Assembly (NCBI GenBank): GCA_022865705.1
Contig: JALHTG010000019.1
Coordinates: 115,784-179,783, forward strand
Direction: 5' to 3'
DNA from: Candidatus Bathyarchaeota archaeon
Lineage (GTDB): Archaea > Thermoproteota > Bathyarchaeia > 40CM-2-53-6 > JALHTG01
Length of the DNA stretch: 64,000 bases
Part shown: positions 51,750 to 58,988 of the stretch, piece after piece
Layout of the letters: each line of letters opens with the position of its first letter
Position numbering within the stretch: the stretch's first letter is position 1
Made by a program: the position numbers and the translations under genes
The notes under the pieces: model-generated
The model's input: the letters and a program-made list of their open reading frames with translations, nothing else
Told to the model about the DNA's origin: nothing
Databases searched by the model: none

Positions 51750-53414
51750 CTACTCGAATTCAGAGGAAGATTCCTCTTCTCCGCCCGGAGGTTTCGGAGG
51801 TCCTCCAGGTGCTCCACTTGGCTTGCCCGCCGCTATGACATCGTCTATCTTCAGGATCATTGTTGCTGCTTCTGTCGCTGACTTCACCGCTTGCTCCTTG
51901 ACGACAACAGGCTCGTAGATGTTCAATTTGCTGAGGTCGGTGACTTTTCCTTCGAATATGTCTATGCCGGCCCACTTTTCTCCTTTGTCGTGGTGGGATC
52001 TAAGGTCTGCCAGCATGTCTATGGGGTCGAGGCCTGCGTTCTCAGCCAAAGCCATCGTGACTCCTTCCATGGCCTCAGCGAAAGCGAGCACAGCCAGCTG
52101 CTCTCTTCCTGAGAGTCCTTGTGCCCAACGCCTAAGGTTGGAGGCTACTTCGATCTCAACTGCACCTCCACCTGCCACAACCCTGGGGTCGCGAACGACA
52201 TCTCTGACCACGCACAACGAGTCATGGATGGATCTCTCGGTCTCGTCAATCATTCGTTCTGTTCCGCCTCTGATGAGAATTGTCACGGCCTTCGGATCTT
52301 TGCAGCCTTCGATGAAAGTCATCTTGTCGTCAGCAATCTTCTTCTCCTCTACGAGTTGGGCCGAGCCAAGATGCTGTGAGGAGAGGTCGTCAAGGTTTGT
52401 GGCAAGCTTCGCTCCGGTAGCTTTCGCCAGTTTCTCCATGTCTTTCTCAGAAGCACGTCTAACTGTCAGAATGCTCTTTTTCGCCAGGAAGTGTTGGGCT
52501 ATGTCATCTATGCCTTTCTGGCATATGAGAACATTTGCCCCAGCCTTGGCCACTTTCTCGACCATATCTTTCAGCATTTTCTCTTCTTCGTCGAGGAACA
52601 TCTTCATTTGCTCTGGCTCTGTTATGTTTATCTTGGCGTCGAACTCGGTCTTCTCGATTTCCAAGGCGCAGTTCAACAGTGCTATTTTGGCGTTCTCCAC
52701 TCTCTTGGGCATGCCTGAGTGGACCACTTCCTTGTCTAGGACTATGCCTTTGATGAGTGTGGTATCATTTGTCGACTGTCCAGTTTTCTTCTCTATCTTG
52801 ATGTCGTCGACGTCTGCCTTGAAACCTTCTTCGGTTTTCTCGGCTATTTGAAGAACCGCGTCTATCGACAGATTCGCGATGTGGTCTGAGTATTCTCGCA
52901 GCGATTTTCCTGACTGAGAAACTACTGCAACGTGCTTCAGCATCTGTTTGTCTGTGGGCTGTACTTTGATTGCGAGTTGCTTGATCAGGTCAAGGGCTTT
53001 CTCAGACGCCTTCTGGTACCCGTCTATGATGACTGTGGGGTGTATTTCTTTGTCTATCATTTCCTCTGCCTTTGTCAGGAGTTCTCCAGCGAGCACGACT
53101 GCGGTGGTTGTTCCGTCGCCTACCTCATCGTCTTGGGCTTTCGCTACTTCAACCATCATTTTTGCGATTGGGTGCTGGATGTCCATTGTTTTCAGTATGA
53201 CTGCACCGTCGTTTGTGATGATGATGTCGCCAAAACTTTCGACGAGCATCTTGTCCATGCCTTTTGGGCCTAGGGACGATCGCACAACGTCTGCCACGAT
53301 CTTGGCGGCGGAGATGTTTGATCTCTGTGCTTCTTTGCCAACGGTTCTTTGTGATCCTTCTCTCAGGATTAGTACTTGTTGTCCACCTATGGTTGCGGGA
53401 ACTGCTTCAGTCAT
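51750..53414 (-). CDS. Thermosome subunit (group II chaperonin), first copy
   Basis: The 554-residue chaperonin has LGPKGMDKML, the ATP-binding [15 protein letters not shown] near residue 98, and AGGGAVEIEVA with the catalytic Asp region. A Pro/Gly-rich tail ends in a Glu/Ser-rich segment. It forms an eight-membered double ring with the neighbouring subunit for ATP-driven protein folding. It begins 15 bases after the upstream subunit's stop, so they form one operon. Confidence 0.94.
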   Translation of the reverse strand: MTEAVPATIGGQQVLILREGSQRTVGKEAQRSNISAAKIVADVVRSSLGPKGMDKMLVESFGDIIITNDGAVILKTMDIQHPIAKMMVEVAKAQDDEVGDGTTTAVVLAGELLTKAEEMIDKEIHPTVIIDGYQKASEKALDLIKQLAIKVQPTDKQMLKHVAVVSQSGKSLREYSDHIANLSIDAVLQIAEKTEEGFKADVDDIKIEKKTGQSTNDTTLIKGIVLDKEVVHSGMPKRVENAKIALLNCALEIEKTEFDAKINITEPEQMKMFLDEEEKMLKDMVEKVAKAGANVLICQKGIDDIAQHFLAKKSILTVRRASEKDMEKLAKATGAKLATNLDDLSSQHLGSAQLVEEKKIADDKMTFIEGCKDPKAVTILIRGGTERMIDETERSIHDSLCVVRDVVRDPRVVAGGGAVEIEVASNLRRWAQGLSGREQLAVLAFAEAMEGVTMALAENAGLDPIDMLADLRSHHDKGEKWAGIDIFEGKVTDLSKLNIYEPVVVKEQAVKSATEAATMILKIDDVIAAGKPSGAPGGPPKPPGGEEESSSEFE

Positions 53415-53428
53415 TATTCATCACCTCA

Positions 53429-55063
53429 TTACATCGGGGGCATTCCTTCGCCCGGCGGTCCCCTCGGAGGCATGGGCGGTGTTTTCGCCGCGGCTATTAC
53501 GTCGTCAACTCTTAAGATCATTGATGCTGCCTCAACCGCTGATTTTATTGCTTGTTCCTTCACTACAACCGGTTCTATTACTCCCTGCTTCATCATATCA
53601 ACGGGCTTACCGGTGACGACATCGACTCCCATCCACAATCCATCAGGTTTCTCATGTGCGGATCTTAAGGCTACCATTATGTCGATGGGGTCTAGGCCAG
53701 CGTTCTCTGCTAGGATTTTCGGTATGGTTTCAACTGCTTCAGCAAACGCTTCTACAGCCAGTTGTTCTCTTCCTCCAACCTTTGTAGCGTGTTCTTTCAA
53801 TCTCTTCGACACTTCCATTTCGATTGACCCTCCACCCGCAACTATCTTGTTCTTCTTCACTATGTCCGCGACCACATGCAATGAGTCTTTGAGGGCTCTT
53901 TCCACCTCATCCACCAGTCTCTCCAGTCCGCCTCTGATCAGTATTCCAACCGCTTTTGGATCCTTGCATCCCTCAATGAAGACCATCTTGTCCTCGCCAA
54001 ACTTCCTTTCTTCAACCAGGCCTGCGCTGCCAAGATCTTGGGACTTGAGATCATCTAGGTTCGTTATGACTCTGCCGCCGGTCGCTCTCGCAAGCTTCTC
54101 CATGTCTGACTGTTTGATTCTTCGAACAGCCATAATGCTCTCCTTGGCCAGGAAGTGTTGGACCATGTCATCTATGCCTTTCTGGCAGAGTACGACGTTG
54201 GCTCCTGATCCTTTGATCTTGTTAACCATGTTTTTCATCATCTCAATCTCCTGGTCCAGAAAGAGCTTCATCTTTGTCGGATCAGATATCCTGATCTCAG
54301 CGCTCATCTCTGTCTTCTCGATCTCCAGCGCAGAGTCGAGAAGGGCGATCTTCGGATTCTTCAGGGACTTGGGCATTCCAGAGTGAACAACTTCCTTGTC
54401 CACGATCACTCCTTTGACGAGTTGAGTGTCCAGGATGCCTTTTCCCTGTTTCTTGACGAGTGCAATATTGTCAACGTCTGCAAGGAAAGCGTTGCCTCTT
54501 TTCTCTTTGACTAGATCAACTGCTTCGATCGAGATGTCCGCCAGATGCCCTCGAGCACCCTCGACTACTTTACTGCGTACAGATGTAAATGCAGCGTTTC
54601 TCAAGATGTTCTTGTCGTCTAGGTTCACCGTGACCGCGAGTTGGTCTAGGATTTCAAGCGCTTTGTCTGCTGCGTTTCTGTAGCCAGCGACTATGGTTGT
54701 TGCATGTATCTGGTCCTGCGTTAGTTCTTCTGCTCTTCTTAGCAGTTCTCCGGCCAGTATGACTGCGGTGGTTGTTCCGTCTCCCACTTCCTTGTCCTGC
54801 GCCTTCGCGACCTCAACCATCATCTTTGCCGCGGGGTTCTGGACTTCAATCTCATCTAGGATTGTTGCACCGTCATTGGTGACAGTCACGTCGCCTAGCG
54901 TATCAACGAGCATCTTGTCCATGCCCCGTGGACCAAGCGTGCTCTTGACAAGTTCCGCGATGATTTTCGCAGCCGCTATATTCGATCTCTGAGCATCTCT
55001 ACCTCTATTTCTAGAGGTACCCTCTTTCAGGATAAGTATAGGTTGACCTGTTAGATATGCCAA
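53429..55063 (-). CDS. Thermosome subunit (group II chaperonin), second copy
   Basis: The 544-residue subunit is paralogous to its neighbour: [57 protein letters not shown] and a Met/Pro/Gly-rich tail (PGEGMPPM). The two subunits differ across the apical domain, so a hetero-oligomeric ring is likely. It is the promoter-proximal gene, divergent from grpE. Confidence 0.94.
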
Positions 55064-55198: not shown

Positions 55199-55807
55199 TT
55201 GATTCCGCAGGATACTCCTCAACAAGAGCCTAATGAGCATCCTATCGATAGGAAGAAGGATGCCTCTGCCAAGAGGACCTTCGTTCCAGTTTCTGAGGTT
55301 ACCTTGCTTCGAAAGGTTTTGGAGGAAGAGAAGAAGAAGAACGAAGAGTGTGTGACTCGCCTCAAATATCTTCAGGCCGACTTCGAAAATCTCCAGAAGC
55401 GCAGTAAACGAGAGATAGATGATGCAACAAAGTATGGTGAAACGGATCTCACACTCAACCTCTTGCCAATCCTGGATGACCTTGAGCGCGCATTGGCCGC
55501 AGGTAAGAACTCGGACAACAAAGAAGCAATCGTCGGGGGATTGGAGATGATACTGAAGGCAGCTCAGAACGTACTGTTCAGAAGAGGCTTATCGCCCATC
55601 GATGCTGTTGGAAAGAAATTCGATCCAGCAAAACACGAGGCGATTGGTTTCGTTTCTTCCTCAGACCGTGAAGAGAACACTGTGGTACGTGAGTTGAGGA
55701 AAGGCTACATGTTCGGCGAGAAAGTCATCCGACCGAGCATAGTTGAGGTTGCACGAAACCCTAGCTCTGAACAGCCTACGAGCTCTCCTAAGACTGCTAG
55801 TCAGTAG
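55199..55807 (+). CDS. grpE: Nucleotide exchange factor GrpE
   Basis: The 202-residue protein has a charged N-terminal tail, a long coiled coil (about 45-100) and the GrpE signature in the C-terminal beta domain (GLSPIDAVGKKFDPAKHEAI, then VVRELRKGYMFGEKVIRPS). It releases ADP from DnaK. Start TTG after GGTGATGG. The dnaK gene follows 157 bases later with its own promoter. Confidence 0.92.
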   Translation: MIPQDTPQQEPNEHPIDRKKDASAKRTFVPVSEVTLLRKVLEEEKKKNEECVTRLKYLQADFENLQKRSKREIDDATKYGETDLTLNLLPILDDLERALAAGKNSDNKEAIVGGLEMILKAAQNVLFRRGLSPIDAVGKKFDPAKHEAIGFVSSSDREENTVVRELRKGYMFGEKVIRPSIVEVARNPSSEQPTSSPKTASQ

Positions 55808-55879: not shown

Positions 55880-55926
55880 GTTACTCTAAGTAACGTTTAT
55901 AAACCTCACTCGTTACCTTGAGTAAC
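55880..55926. promoter_or_regulatory. Two palindromic operators flanking the dnaK TATA box
   Basis: GTTACTCTAAGTAAC (55880-55894) and GTTACCTTGAGTAAC (55912-55926) both fit GTTAC-N5-GTAAC. Between them the palindrome GTTTATAAAC (55895-55904) holds the TATA box. The centres are 32 bases apart, about three helical turns. The downstream copy covers the expected start site (about 25 bases after TATA). This is the geometry of a repressor-controlled archaeal heat-shock promoter. Confidence 0.75.
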
Positions 55927-55964
55927 TCGCATAGCATAGAACAGTCTCAGTTGAGGTGTACGCC

Positions 55965-57851
55965 TTGGCAAAGGTTATCGGAATAGATCTTGGAACAACT
56001 AATTCCGCTGCAGCAGTGATGGAGGCTGGTAGGCCAGTTGTGGTTCCAAGTGCTGAAGGACCAACGATGGCCGGCAAGATGTTTCCATCTGTTGTTGCTT
56101 TCACCAAAGATGGTACCTTGCTGGTTGGCGAGTCTGCCAAGCGTCAAGCAAGCTCAAACCCAGAAGGCACGATCATTGAGATAAAAAGAAAAATGGGAAC
56201 CGACTACAAAGTCCAAGTCTTCGGAAAAGAGTATACCCCACAGCAAATATCCGCATTTATTCTGCAGAAGATAAAACGCGATGCCGAAAGTTTCCTAGGA
56301 GATAAAGTGGATACAGCTGTGATTACCGTTCCTGCCCACTTCAACGATAATCAAAGACAAGCCACCAAAGATGCCGCAGAGATAGCCGGGTTCAAGGTTC
56401 CTAGATTGGTCAACGAGCCTACTGCAGCGTGTCTGGCCTATGGGTTAGGCTCATTCGGCAAGACAATGAAGGTAATGGTGTTCAGTTTCGGCGGAGGAAC
56501 TCATGACGTTACTCTGATGGAAATGGGTTTCGTAAAGGAGACAAAAGAGAGCACGTTTGAAGTTCTCTCAACAAGTGGAGATACAAAGACAGGTGGTGCC
56601 GATGTTGACAATGCTGTGACAGAGTATCTGGTTGAAGAGTTTCGGAGAGGGAACGGGATCGACCTGAGCGGGGACAAGATGGCGATGACGCGCCTTAGGG
56701 AGGCAGCTGAGAGAGCGAAGATAGAACTGTCAGTTATGGTGACAACTGATATCGATATGCCGTTTATTGCCCAGGACACTTCTGGGCCAAAGCATTTTCA
56801 CCTGACTCTGACCCGAGCAAAGCTTGAGGAATTGGCGCGCCCGATCGTTGACCGTATTAGGGGTCCGATCACGCAGGTGTTGGCTGACGCCAAGGGCGGT
56901 TCTCTACAACCAAACGACATAGACAAGATCATCCTGATAGGAGGCATGACGAGGATGCCTCTAGTCCGGAGCTTCGTGGAATCCATCATGGGTAAGCCTG
57001 CTGAACGAGGATTGGATCCAATGGAATGTGTGGCGGTTGGAGCTGCGATTCAAGCCGGTGTAATGACGGGCGAAGTGAAGGATCTTCTTCTTTTAGACGT
57101 CACACCTCTTTCGCTCGGTGTGGAGACCCTTGGAGGGATCCTCACTAAGCTCATAGAGCGAAATACTACTGTACCGACAAGAAAGAGCCAAGTCTTCTCA
57201 ACAGCAGCAGACTTCCAGACCACAGTCACGGTTCATGTACTTCAAGGCGAGAGGCCAATGGCTGCGGACAATGTTTCATTGGGCATGTTCAATCTCACAG
57301 GTATACCTCCGGCACCACGAGGAGTGCCGCAAATAGAGGTCACCTTTGACATCAATGCGGATGGGATCCTCAATGTCGCCGCCAAAGACTTGGGAACAGG
57401 GAACCAACAGAAGATCACAATCACTGCTTCAACCAAGCTGTCGGAATCAGAGAAGGAACGAATGGTCAAAGAGGCTGAACAGTTCGCAGAGCAGGACAAG
57501 AAGAAACGTGAGGAAGCAGAAACACGTAACAATGCCGACTCAATGATCTACACTGCTGAGAAGACCAAGACAGATCTGAAGGAGAAAATAGGCAAAGACA
57601 ACGTTGAGAAAATTGACAAAGGAATCGCTGAGATGAAAGAAGCCCTCAGCGGAAAAGACGTGCCTAAGATAAAGGTGAAGACCGACGAGCTGGCGAAGAT
57701 GCTTCAACAGATTGGGGCAACAGTGTATCAACAGGTTAGCCAACAACAGGCACAGCAACAGCAGCAGACTCCTCCACCTGGACCTGAGAAGCAGCCTGAC
57801 AAAGTAGTGGATGCAGACTACAAGGTTGTTGATGAAGAGAAGAAGCCGTAG
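55965..57851 (+). CDS. dnaK: Molecular chaperone DnaK (Hsp70)
   Basis: About 628 residues from TTG 55965, with GAGGTG 6 bases upstream. ATPase motifs are [13 protein letters not shown], the Lys in [18 protein letters not shown] and [12 protein letters not shown]. The substrate domain ([14 protein letters not shown]) and a Gln-rich tail ending [13 protein letters not shown] are typical. In the second phosphate loop the usual DLGGGTFD reads FSFGGGTHD, so the Asp matching E. coli D194 is Ser. It refolds proteins with DnaJ and GrpE; the operator pair lies upstream. Confidence 0.94.
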
Positions 57852-57884
57852 TTTTGATGTCAAAGATGAATGGTCCGGTCACAG

Positions 57885-58988
57885 ATGGAAAAGAGAGACT
57901 ACTATGAGATCCTCGGCCTCTCCAGAGATGCGACTAAAGAGCAGGTGAAGGACGCTTACAGAAAGCTCGCACTTCAATACCATCCTGATAGAAACAAGTC
58001 TCCTGACGCTGAGGAGAAGTTCAAAGAGATCTCCGAAGCATACGCTGTTCTCTCTGACGACGAAAAAAGACAGCAGTACGATCAGCTCGGCCACGCCGGA
58101 ATCGATCAGAGATACACCTATGAAGACATATTCAGAACAACCGACTTTGAATCCATCTTCCGTGACCTAGGGTTTGGCTTCGGAGGATTCGGTAGCATCT
58201 TCGATACGTTCTTTGGTCGTGGAAGAGGTTGGGGAGAAGAAAGACCTGGACGAGGTTCTGACCTCAGGTACGATCTTGAGATTCCACTCGAAGAAGTAGC
58301 CACAGGGGCGACGAAAGAGATCACAGTGCCCCGAAGAGAGAAGTGTGATGTGTGCAATGGAAGTGGAGCGAGAAAGGGCACCACGCCTAAGACCTGTTCA
58401 CGTTGTCAGGGTAGGGGGCAGGTCCAGCATGTACAAGAAGCAGGATTCGCTCGATTTGTCAGAATTGAAACATGTGACCGATGTCAGGGAAGGGGAGTCA
58501 TCATAGAATCTCCCTGCCAGAAATGTCGAGGAACAGGAATTGTCGAACATACACGCAAAATCACCTTGAAAATTCCACCTGGCGTTGAAAGTGGGACAGC
58601 GCTAAGATTGGCTGGCGAAGGAGACTCAGGAGGTTCAGGAATATCGACTGGCGATCTCTTCGTGTATGTCATGGTGAAACCTCACAGCATTTTCGAGAGA
58701 GATGGAAGTGACATCTACTGTGAGATACCGATTGGGTTCGCAGAGGCTTCTCTGGGTGCAGAAATCGAAATACCCACATTGAGCAGTCGTGCCAGCCTAC
58801 GTATTCAGGGGGGAACCCAAACCGGAACAGTATTTCGGTTAAGGGGAAAGGGACTTCCAGAGTATCGGGGGCGGGGCAGAGGGGATCAGCTGGTGAAGAT
58901 CATCGTTAGGACCCCCACTAACCTGACTGAAAGACAACGAATGATTCTGAGTGAGCTGAAGAAAGAGGAGCGCCCGGTAAGAAAATAG
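57885..58988 (+). CDS. dnaJ: Co-chaperone DnaJ
   Basis: About 367 residues. The J domain has the HPD tripeptide in [11 protein letters not shown], followed by a Gly/Phe-rich region ([16 protein letters not shown]) and four zinc-binding CxxCxGxG-type repeats ([32 protein letters not shown]). The C-terminal peptide-binding domains are complete, making it a type I DnaJ. The ATG at 57885 gives [11 protein letters not shown]. It follows dnaK by about 30 bases. Confidence 0.94.

Follow-up and report, generated by a model that had tools for sequence, protein, structure and literature searches.

Paired palindromes around a Bathyarchaeia dnaK TATA box as candidate operators of a small proteostasis regulon

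Introduction

Which protein reads the two palindromes that enclose the TATA box of dnaK in an uncultured member of the Bathyarchaeia, and does it serve dnaK alone? The locus lies in a 64,000-nucleotide stretch of a 'Candidatus Bathyarchaeota' genome (contig JALHTG010000019.1), referred to below as the window. Dedicated heat-shock repressors of archaea have so far been reported from Euryarchaeota alone (Phr and HSR1), with none in Crenarchaeota (PMC10653856, PMC10746257), a group for which no thermal-responsive regulator is known (PMC10746257). Our own literature search, whose coverage left out most subscription journals, returned no report of this operator or of the regulator proposed here.

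Results

The operator pair and the dnaK promoter

An earlier note on this DNA had described two copies of GTTAC-N5-GTAAC, 32 bases apart, around the dnaK TATA box. Both copies are present (Table 1), 32 bp apart from start to start and with 17 bp between the sites, and the TATA box TTTATAAA begins one base past the upstream operator GTTACTCTAAGTAAC. When the whole window was scanned, the exact motif was found only at this pair, the next best match having two mismatches. Two tandem thermosome subunit genes occupy positions 51750-55063 on the minus strand, divergent from grpE, and 157 bp separate the stop codon of grpE from the start of dnaK. The upstream regions of the thermosome genes and of grpE hold neither an exact nor a near match, as the earlier note had also observed; with no operator copy at the thermosome genes, the group II chaperonins seem to stand outside the regulon.

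Start sites usually lie 26-27 bp from the centre of the TATA box, and by this spacing the transcription start of dnaK would fall near 55926, where the second palindrome ends. The most likely translation start is the TTG at 55965 behind GAGGTG, about 39 nt past the predicted transcription start, an arrangement compatible with the use of this TATA box. Probably dnaJ is co-transcribed with dnaK. The earlier proposal that one palindrome blocks the entry of TBP/TFB and the other the start site agrees with this promoter geometry.

Table 1. Positions of the dnaK promoter elements and genes in the window, and of the related promoters and loci elsewhere.
Feature	Position	Strand	Remarks
Upstream operator GTTACTCTAAGTAAC	55880..55894	+	Right arm adjoins the TATA box and lies over the BRE
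TATA box TTTATAAA	55896..55903	+	Same position in every copy
Palindrome GTTTATAAAC	55895-55904		Contains the TATA box TTTATAAA
Downstream operator GTTACCTTGAGTAAC	55912..55926	+	Expected overlap with the transcription start (about -14 to +1)
Shine-Dalgarno-like GAGGTG	55953..55958	+	6 nt ahead of the likely TTG start
dnaK (Hsp70)	55965..57851	+	First controlled gene; TTG 55965 preferred over GTG 55956
dnaJ (Hsp40)	57870..58988	+	18-bp gap after dnaK
grpE	55199..55807	+	Gene upstream of dnaK; without operator
Promoter a: dnaK-dnaJ	Window
Promoter b: hsp20	L040:489-1088		PF00011
Promoter c: 116-aa winged-helix gene	L039:3876-4226	minus	G000:C16
cdc48	L039:1629-3806	minus	Behind the winged-helix gene at promoter c
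Promoter d: HExxH protein	L041:3692-about 4210	minus	HEYLH, metalloprotease signature
Weak homologues, family f29	L195, L196, L198, L199, L202		G364, G369, G379, G389, G394
Type II loci	L206-L235, e.g. L210, L213, L226		Many Bathyarchaeia families

Four operator pairs in the genome

The genome scan that the earlier note had suggested returned eight exact sites across the 2.17 Mb of the genome; the reversed control pattern gave three. All eight fall into four pairs (32, 31, 30 and 32 bp from start to start), each of which brackets a TATA box. Between the upstream palindrome and TTTATA stands a single purine, without exception among the four promoters. By our arithmetic, taking about one site per 4^10 bases, some 1e-4 pairs within 50 bp would be expected by chance, so the pairing cannot be fortuitous. 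Allowing up to two mismatches added only one more candidate in this genome, fewer than in the control, and we therefore regard the regulon as small and sharply defined. The fixed geometry of site and TATA box also gives the direction of the promoter on contig C99, which reads from the minus strand.

Besides dnaK-dnaJ, the pairs stand ahead of hsp20, of a gene for a 116-aa winged-helix protein that is followed by cdc48, and of a gene for an HExxH protein (Table 1). No redox or metal genes were found among these targets. Since the same operator pair occurs at three other promoters, including that of the candidate repressor itself, the earlier idea that dnaK-dnaJ may have its own repressor has to be given up; on the evidence of the sequence, dnaK-dnaJ is part of a predicted small proteostasis regulon that includes a regulator gene. 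The HExxH protein has no family match at the Pfam/NCBIfam cutoffs, and one of its orthologues gives a sub-threshold SprT-like match. Proteins of this HExxH (HEYLH) family, of about 160-170 aa (L041:3692-4210, minus; L094:3368-3853; L151:2334-2819; L163:2319-2813), are linked repeatedly to hsp20, cdc48 and the heat-shock regulator, and the family is possibly a stress protease.

The genome bin is 91.6% complete and has 6.3% contamination; with a G+C content of 48-50% in all four contig stretches, these contigs likely come from one cell. A second cdc48 gene lies on another contig (L146, G000:C41, 4061-6520, minus) with a truncated regulator remnant and no operator upstream; the remnant is 78% identical over 64 aa and clearly degraded, and the locus is either a decayed duplicate or a contaminating contig.

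Archaeal regulators can act both ways, depending on the position of their sites, which would allow the pairs to be activator sites instead of operators. In all copies, however, the upstream site lies on the BRE by the TATA box and the downstream site on the expected start. Both positions would hinder initiation, so we disfavour activation as very improbable.

The candidate regulator

The likely autoregulated repressor of the regulon is the 116-aa winged-helix protein, whose gene starts about 14 bp past the downstream operator of its own promoter. Its orthologues are about 250 aa long and consist of an N-terminal domain and a C-terminal winged helix with an invariant NPK-L-Y-N, while the local protein is the winged-helix half alone, with the helix NPKLVYEN intact. 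The predicted N-terminal domain of the orthologues is similar to PD-(D/E)XK nuclease domains, for example those of Can2 and OkrAI (a weak match, E 1e-3); in type-I regulators, L120, L094 and L158 among them, residues 1-135 look like a degenerate PD-(D/E)XK fold fused to the winged helix. As it lacks this domain of about 130 aa, the local protein might be a remnant.

For the local protein AlphaFold predicted a winged-helix fold and a long helix at the C-terminus (pLDDT 83), and the nearest folds by Foldseek were dimeric repressors of the ArsR/MarR/HxlR type (probability 1.00, TM about 0.6). The model thus has an ArsR/MarR-like fold, a predicted winged helix with flanking helices of the dimer type. 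In the Pfam/NCBIfam scans the regulator stayed below family cutoffs and no metal-sensor family reached its cutoff; for PF25213 (HVO_A0261_N) the local protein scored 33.1 bits, below the gathering cutoff of 35, and the orthologues 15-21 bits. A search of the PDB with the single local protein gave no match, and with the regulator profile the best match was Phr (2P4W, E 0.072 and 0.029), over the winged helix only. Weak homologues of about 270 aa, some with internal stops, occur in another group of the phylum (family f29; Table 1).

Among the nearest folds of the local protein are ArsR/HxlR-type sensors of redox state and of metals, which would suit a stress regulator that answers to a non-heat signal (oxidative, metal or thiol), with chaperone targets by coincidence. 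Against this reading, those targets that can be recognised comprise chaperones and an unfoldase, without redox or metal genes, no metal-sensor family is matched at cutoff, and a similar set is under Phr control on heat shock (PMC10746257). We therefore consider a non-heat signal unlikely and keep protein-damaging stress as the preferred one.

The regulator and its operator in relatives

We scanned 257 genomes of the class for the site followed by N and YTTAT. The pattern was present in 25 of them, against one for the reversed control; 24 of the 25, this genome included, belong to the same order, and the remaining one to family f13. Outside this genome there were 27 matches: 25 lie directly before an orthologue of the regulator gene, one lies before cdc48, and the last falls at the end of a contig. 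Behind the regulator comes hsp20 in family f3 and in G070, cdc48 in family f4 and a homologue of the HExxH gene in G033 and G036, and one locus (L094, identical to L190 over their overlap) has the regulator, the HExxH homologue and cdc48 in one row. As these partners are the genes that carry separate operators in this genome, the relatives lend the regulon independent support.

Moreover, among 101 genomes searched for the regulator, the exact pattern was found in 25 of the 29 with it (one of them, G012, recognised through the operator) and in none of the 72 without it (Fisher 7e-20, a nominal value, since the test ignores kinship). Of the other four, G022 has TTTAAA where TTTAT is expected, G014 deviates by a single base in its upstream site, and G054 and G083 have a spacing of N6.

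This co-occurrence bears on the proposal that another DNA-binding (ArsR-like) protein reads the operators and that the 116-aa protein is merely a target or a decaying remnant. The truncation of the local protein relative to its orthologues speaks for such a protein, as do other ArsR/HVO_A0261-like proteins in the genome, among them a 218-aa protein on contig C70 that matches the Phr model weakly (24 bits). Yet operator and regulator orthologue occur together in the relatives, the local copy has an intact NPKLVYEN helix, and the exact operator pairs of the genome are all accounted for, none of them at another regulator gene. We judge the involvement of a different protein improbable and retain the 116-aa protein as the candidate.

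A global scan for site pairs in 84,980 species gave 74 stretches; the TATA-bracketing pairs among them number about two dozen and come nearly all from archaea of the 'Candidatus Bathyarchaeota' or 'archaeon RBG_16_50_20' type. Matches in Methanomicrobiales were rejected as instances of the same system; they are GTTACA-N3-TGTAAC-like site arrays with no TATA box between the sites. At L077, L080, L105, L127 and L136 such arrays consist of two or three tandem GTTAC-N5-GTAAC sites, AT-rich in the middle and spaced by 31-32 bp, and they probably belong to another regulator with similar spacing. The remaining bacterial matches are mostly unrelated repeats or chance.

Operators at dnaK are found in this genome alone among 30 loci

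Conservation upstream of dnaK, which the earlier note had expected in close relatives, was not observed: a position-weight scan found no operator upstream of dnaK in any of 29 relatives, a comparison at the level of the order, this genome being the sole member of its family among those compared. Conservation is strong instead upstream of the regulator gene (25 of the 27 outside matches). The predicted operator control of dnaK is thus peculiar to this genome among 30 dnaK loci; in several relatives grpE and dnaK almost touch, or dnaK has different neighbours. The module of regulator and operator is conserved across the order, unlike its use at dnaK. The simplest reading is that dnaK was recruited into the regulon in this lineage, and loss of the dnaK operators elsewhere is possible.

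A second type of regulator in the class

A shorter winged-helix protein of about 138 aa, which we call type II, is related to the first type (profile match, E 1.3e-12). It was found in 87 of the 257 class genomes at E <= 1e-10, with some weak cross-matches to other types in the count; this genome has none at that threshold. In 28 of 30 loci (Table 1) two or three TTAC-N5/7-GTAA palindromes, mostly N6, lie around a TATA box, and hsp20 is next to the regulator in 29 of the 30, with the HExxH gene also present in two. The best PDB match of the type II profile is again Phr (E 7.6e-4). A predicted type II regulator-hsp20 operon with TTAC-N6-GTAA pairs is thus widespread in the class.

Discussion

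On balance, an autoregulated repressor for heat shock (proteostasis) probably uses the palindromes as its operators, and the most likely candidate for it is the 116-aa winged-helix protein. From the promoter geometry, the autoregulatory placement of its gene and the parallel to Phr and HSR1 we infer binding of these sites by this protein, its repressing action and heat as the signal. An ArsR-like dimer would sit on each palindrome; the distance between the paired sites, about three helical turns, places both on the same face of the helix. On the upstream site the dimer would cover the BRE and adjoin the TATA box, hindering TBP/TFB, and on the downstream site it would cover the start site and hinder RNA polymerase. 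Under protein-damaging stress (heat or unfolded protein) the repressor would leave the DNA, dnaK-dnaJ, hsp20, cdc48, the HExxH gene and the regulator gene would be turned on together, and the induction of the regulator itself would reset the circuit.

A broader reading, which we hold only tentatively and think unlikely as a whole, gives the Bathyarchaeia their own general heat-shock circuit, with a regulator family of two types, both of which control their own genes through TTAC-N5/6-GTAA operators on either side of the TATA box. Such a circuit would drive hsp20, cdc48 and the HExxH protein, and in this lineage it would have captured dnaK-dnaJ, a bacterial-type operon, while the regulator shed its nuclease-like domain. 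Given both the capture and the shedding, DnaK may have become the sensor; if true, this would be a chaperone-titration feedback like that of HrcA or sigma-32.

Operator, regulator and regulon are here predicted together for uncultured Bathyarchaeia, and should the probable reading hold, a heat-shock circuit that had been hidden becomes visible. Its promoter design is unusual, with a TATA box caged between two operators, and within a single lineage such a regulon would have taken in Hsp70 (dnaK-dnaJ). With the 47-bp fragment and the 116-aa protein, the circuit can be tested in vitro without culturing the organism.

Comparison with known heat-shock systems

Bacteria control dnaK through HrcA and CIRCE, a repressor and an inverted repeat, and a repressor with an inverted repeat at dnaK is what we propose here. 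CIRCE itself (TTAGCACTC-N9-GAGTGCTAA) is absent upstream of dnaK and grpE, where the closest matches have 8-9 mismatches of 18, and the family scans of the regulator returned no HrcA family. The predicted winged helix with flanking helices is shared with repressors of the ArsR/SmtB type, from which the regulator differs by scoring below the family cutoffs and by the extra N-terminal PD-(D/E)XK-like domain of its orthologues.

Among archaeal systems, the HSR1 (AF1298) operon of Archaeoglobus fulgidus contains, like the operon at promoter c, a cdc48 gene. HSR1 is an autoregulated protein with a site CTAAC-N5-GTTAG upstream of its own gene and with hsp20 downstream in the operon (PMC9133787). Both operators are palindromes of 5-bp arms around N5, and in both cases the regulator gene heads an operon, with cdc48 or hsp20, behind its own operator. 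The arms here are, however, GTTAC/GTAAC, not those of CTAAC-N5-GTTAG, the TATA box has a site on each side, and the targets extend to dnaK-dnaJ. The accessible parts of the sources do not mention Hsp70 among the targets of Phr or HSR1 (PMC9133787, PMC10746257).

Phr of Pyrococcus furiosus is a winged-helix repressor of HSP20 and VAT1 (PMC10746257), and a regulon with hsp20 and a VAT/cdc48 ATPase is also found here. In contrast to the two TATA-flanking palindromes, Phr is reported to bind one 29-bp region overlapping the start site, with TTTA, TGGTAA and AAAA (PMC9133787), and its winged helix is N-terminal, that of the orthologues here C-terminal. For the Phr model NCBIfam NF053602 (cutoff 320 bits) no match was listed for the local protein or the type-I orthologues; type II proteins reached 13 bits, and the only match of the genome, at 24 bits, lies at another locus. 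The earlier remark that known archaeal repressors bind other sites is right for Phr and incomplete as a whole, because the HSR1 site shares the layout of the palindromes (PMC9133787). Since the Phr model is not matched and the site is not that of HSR1, we file the regulator under neither name. Our best model is that it would work like Phr and HSR1, though it scores far below the Phr family cutoff and its operator arms are not those of HSR1.
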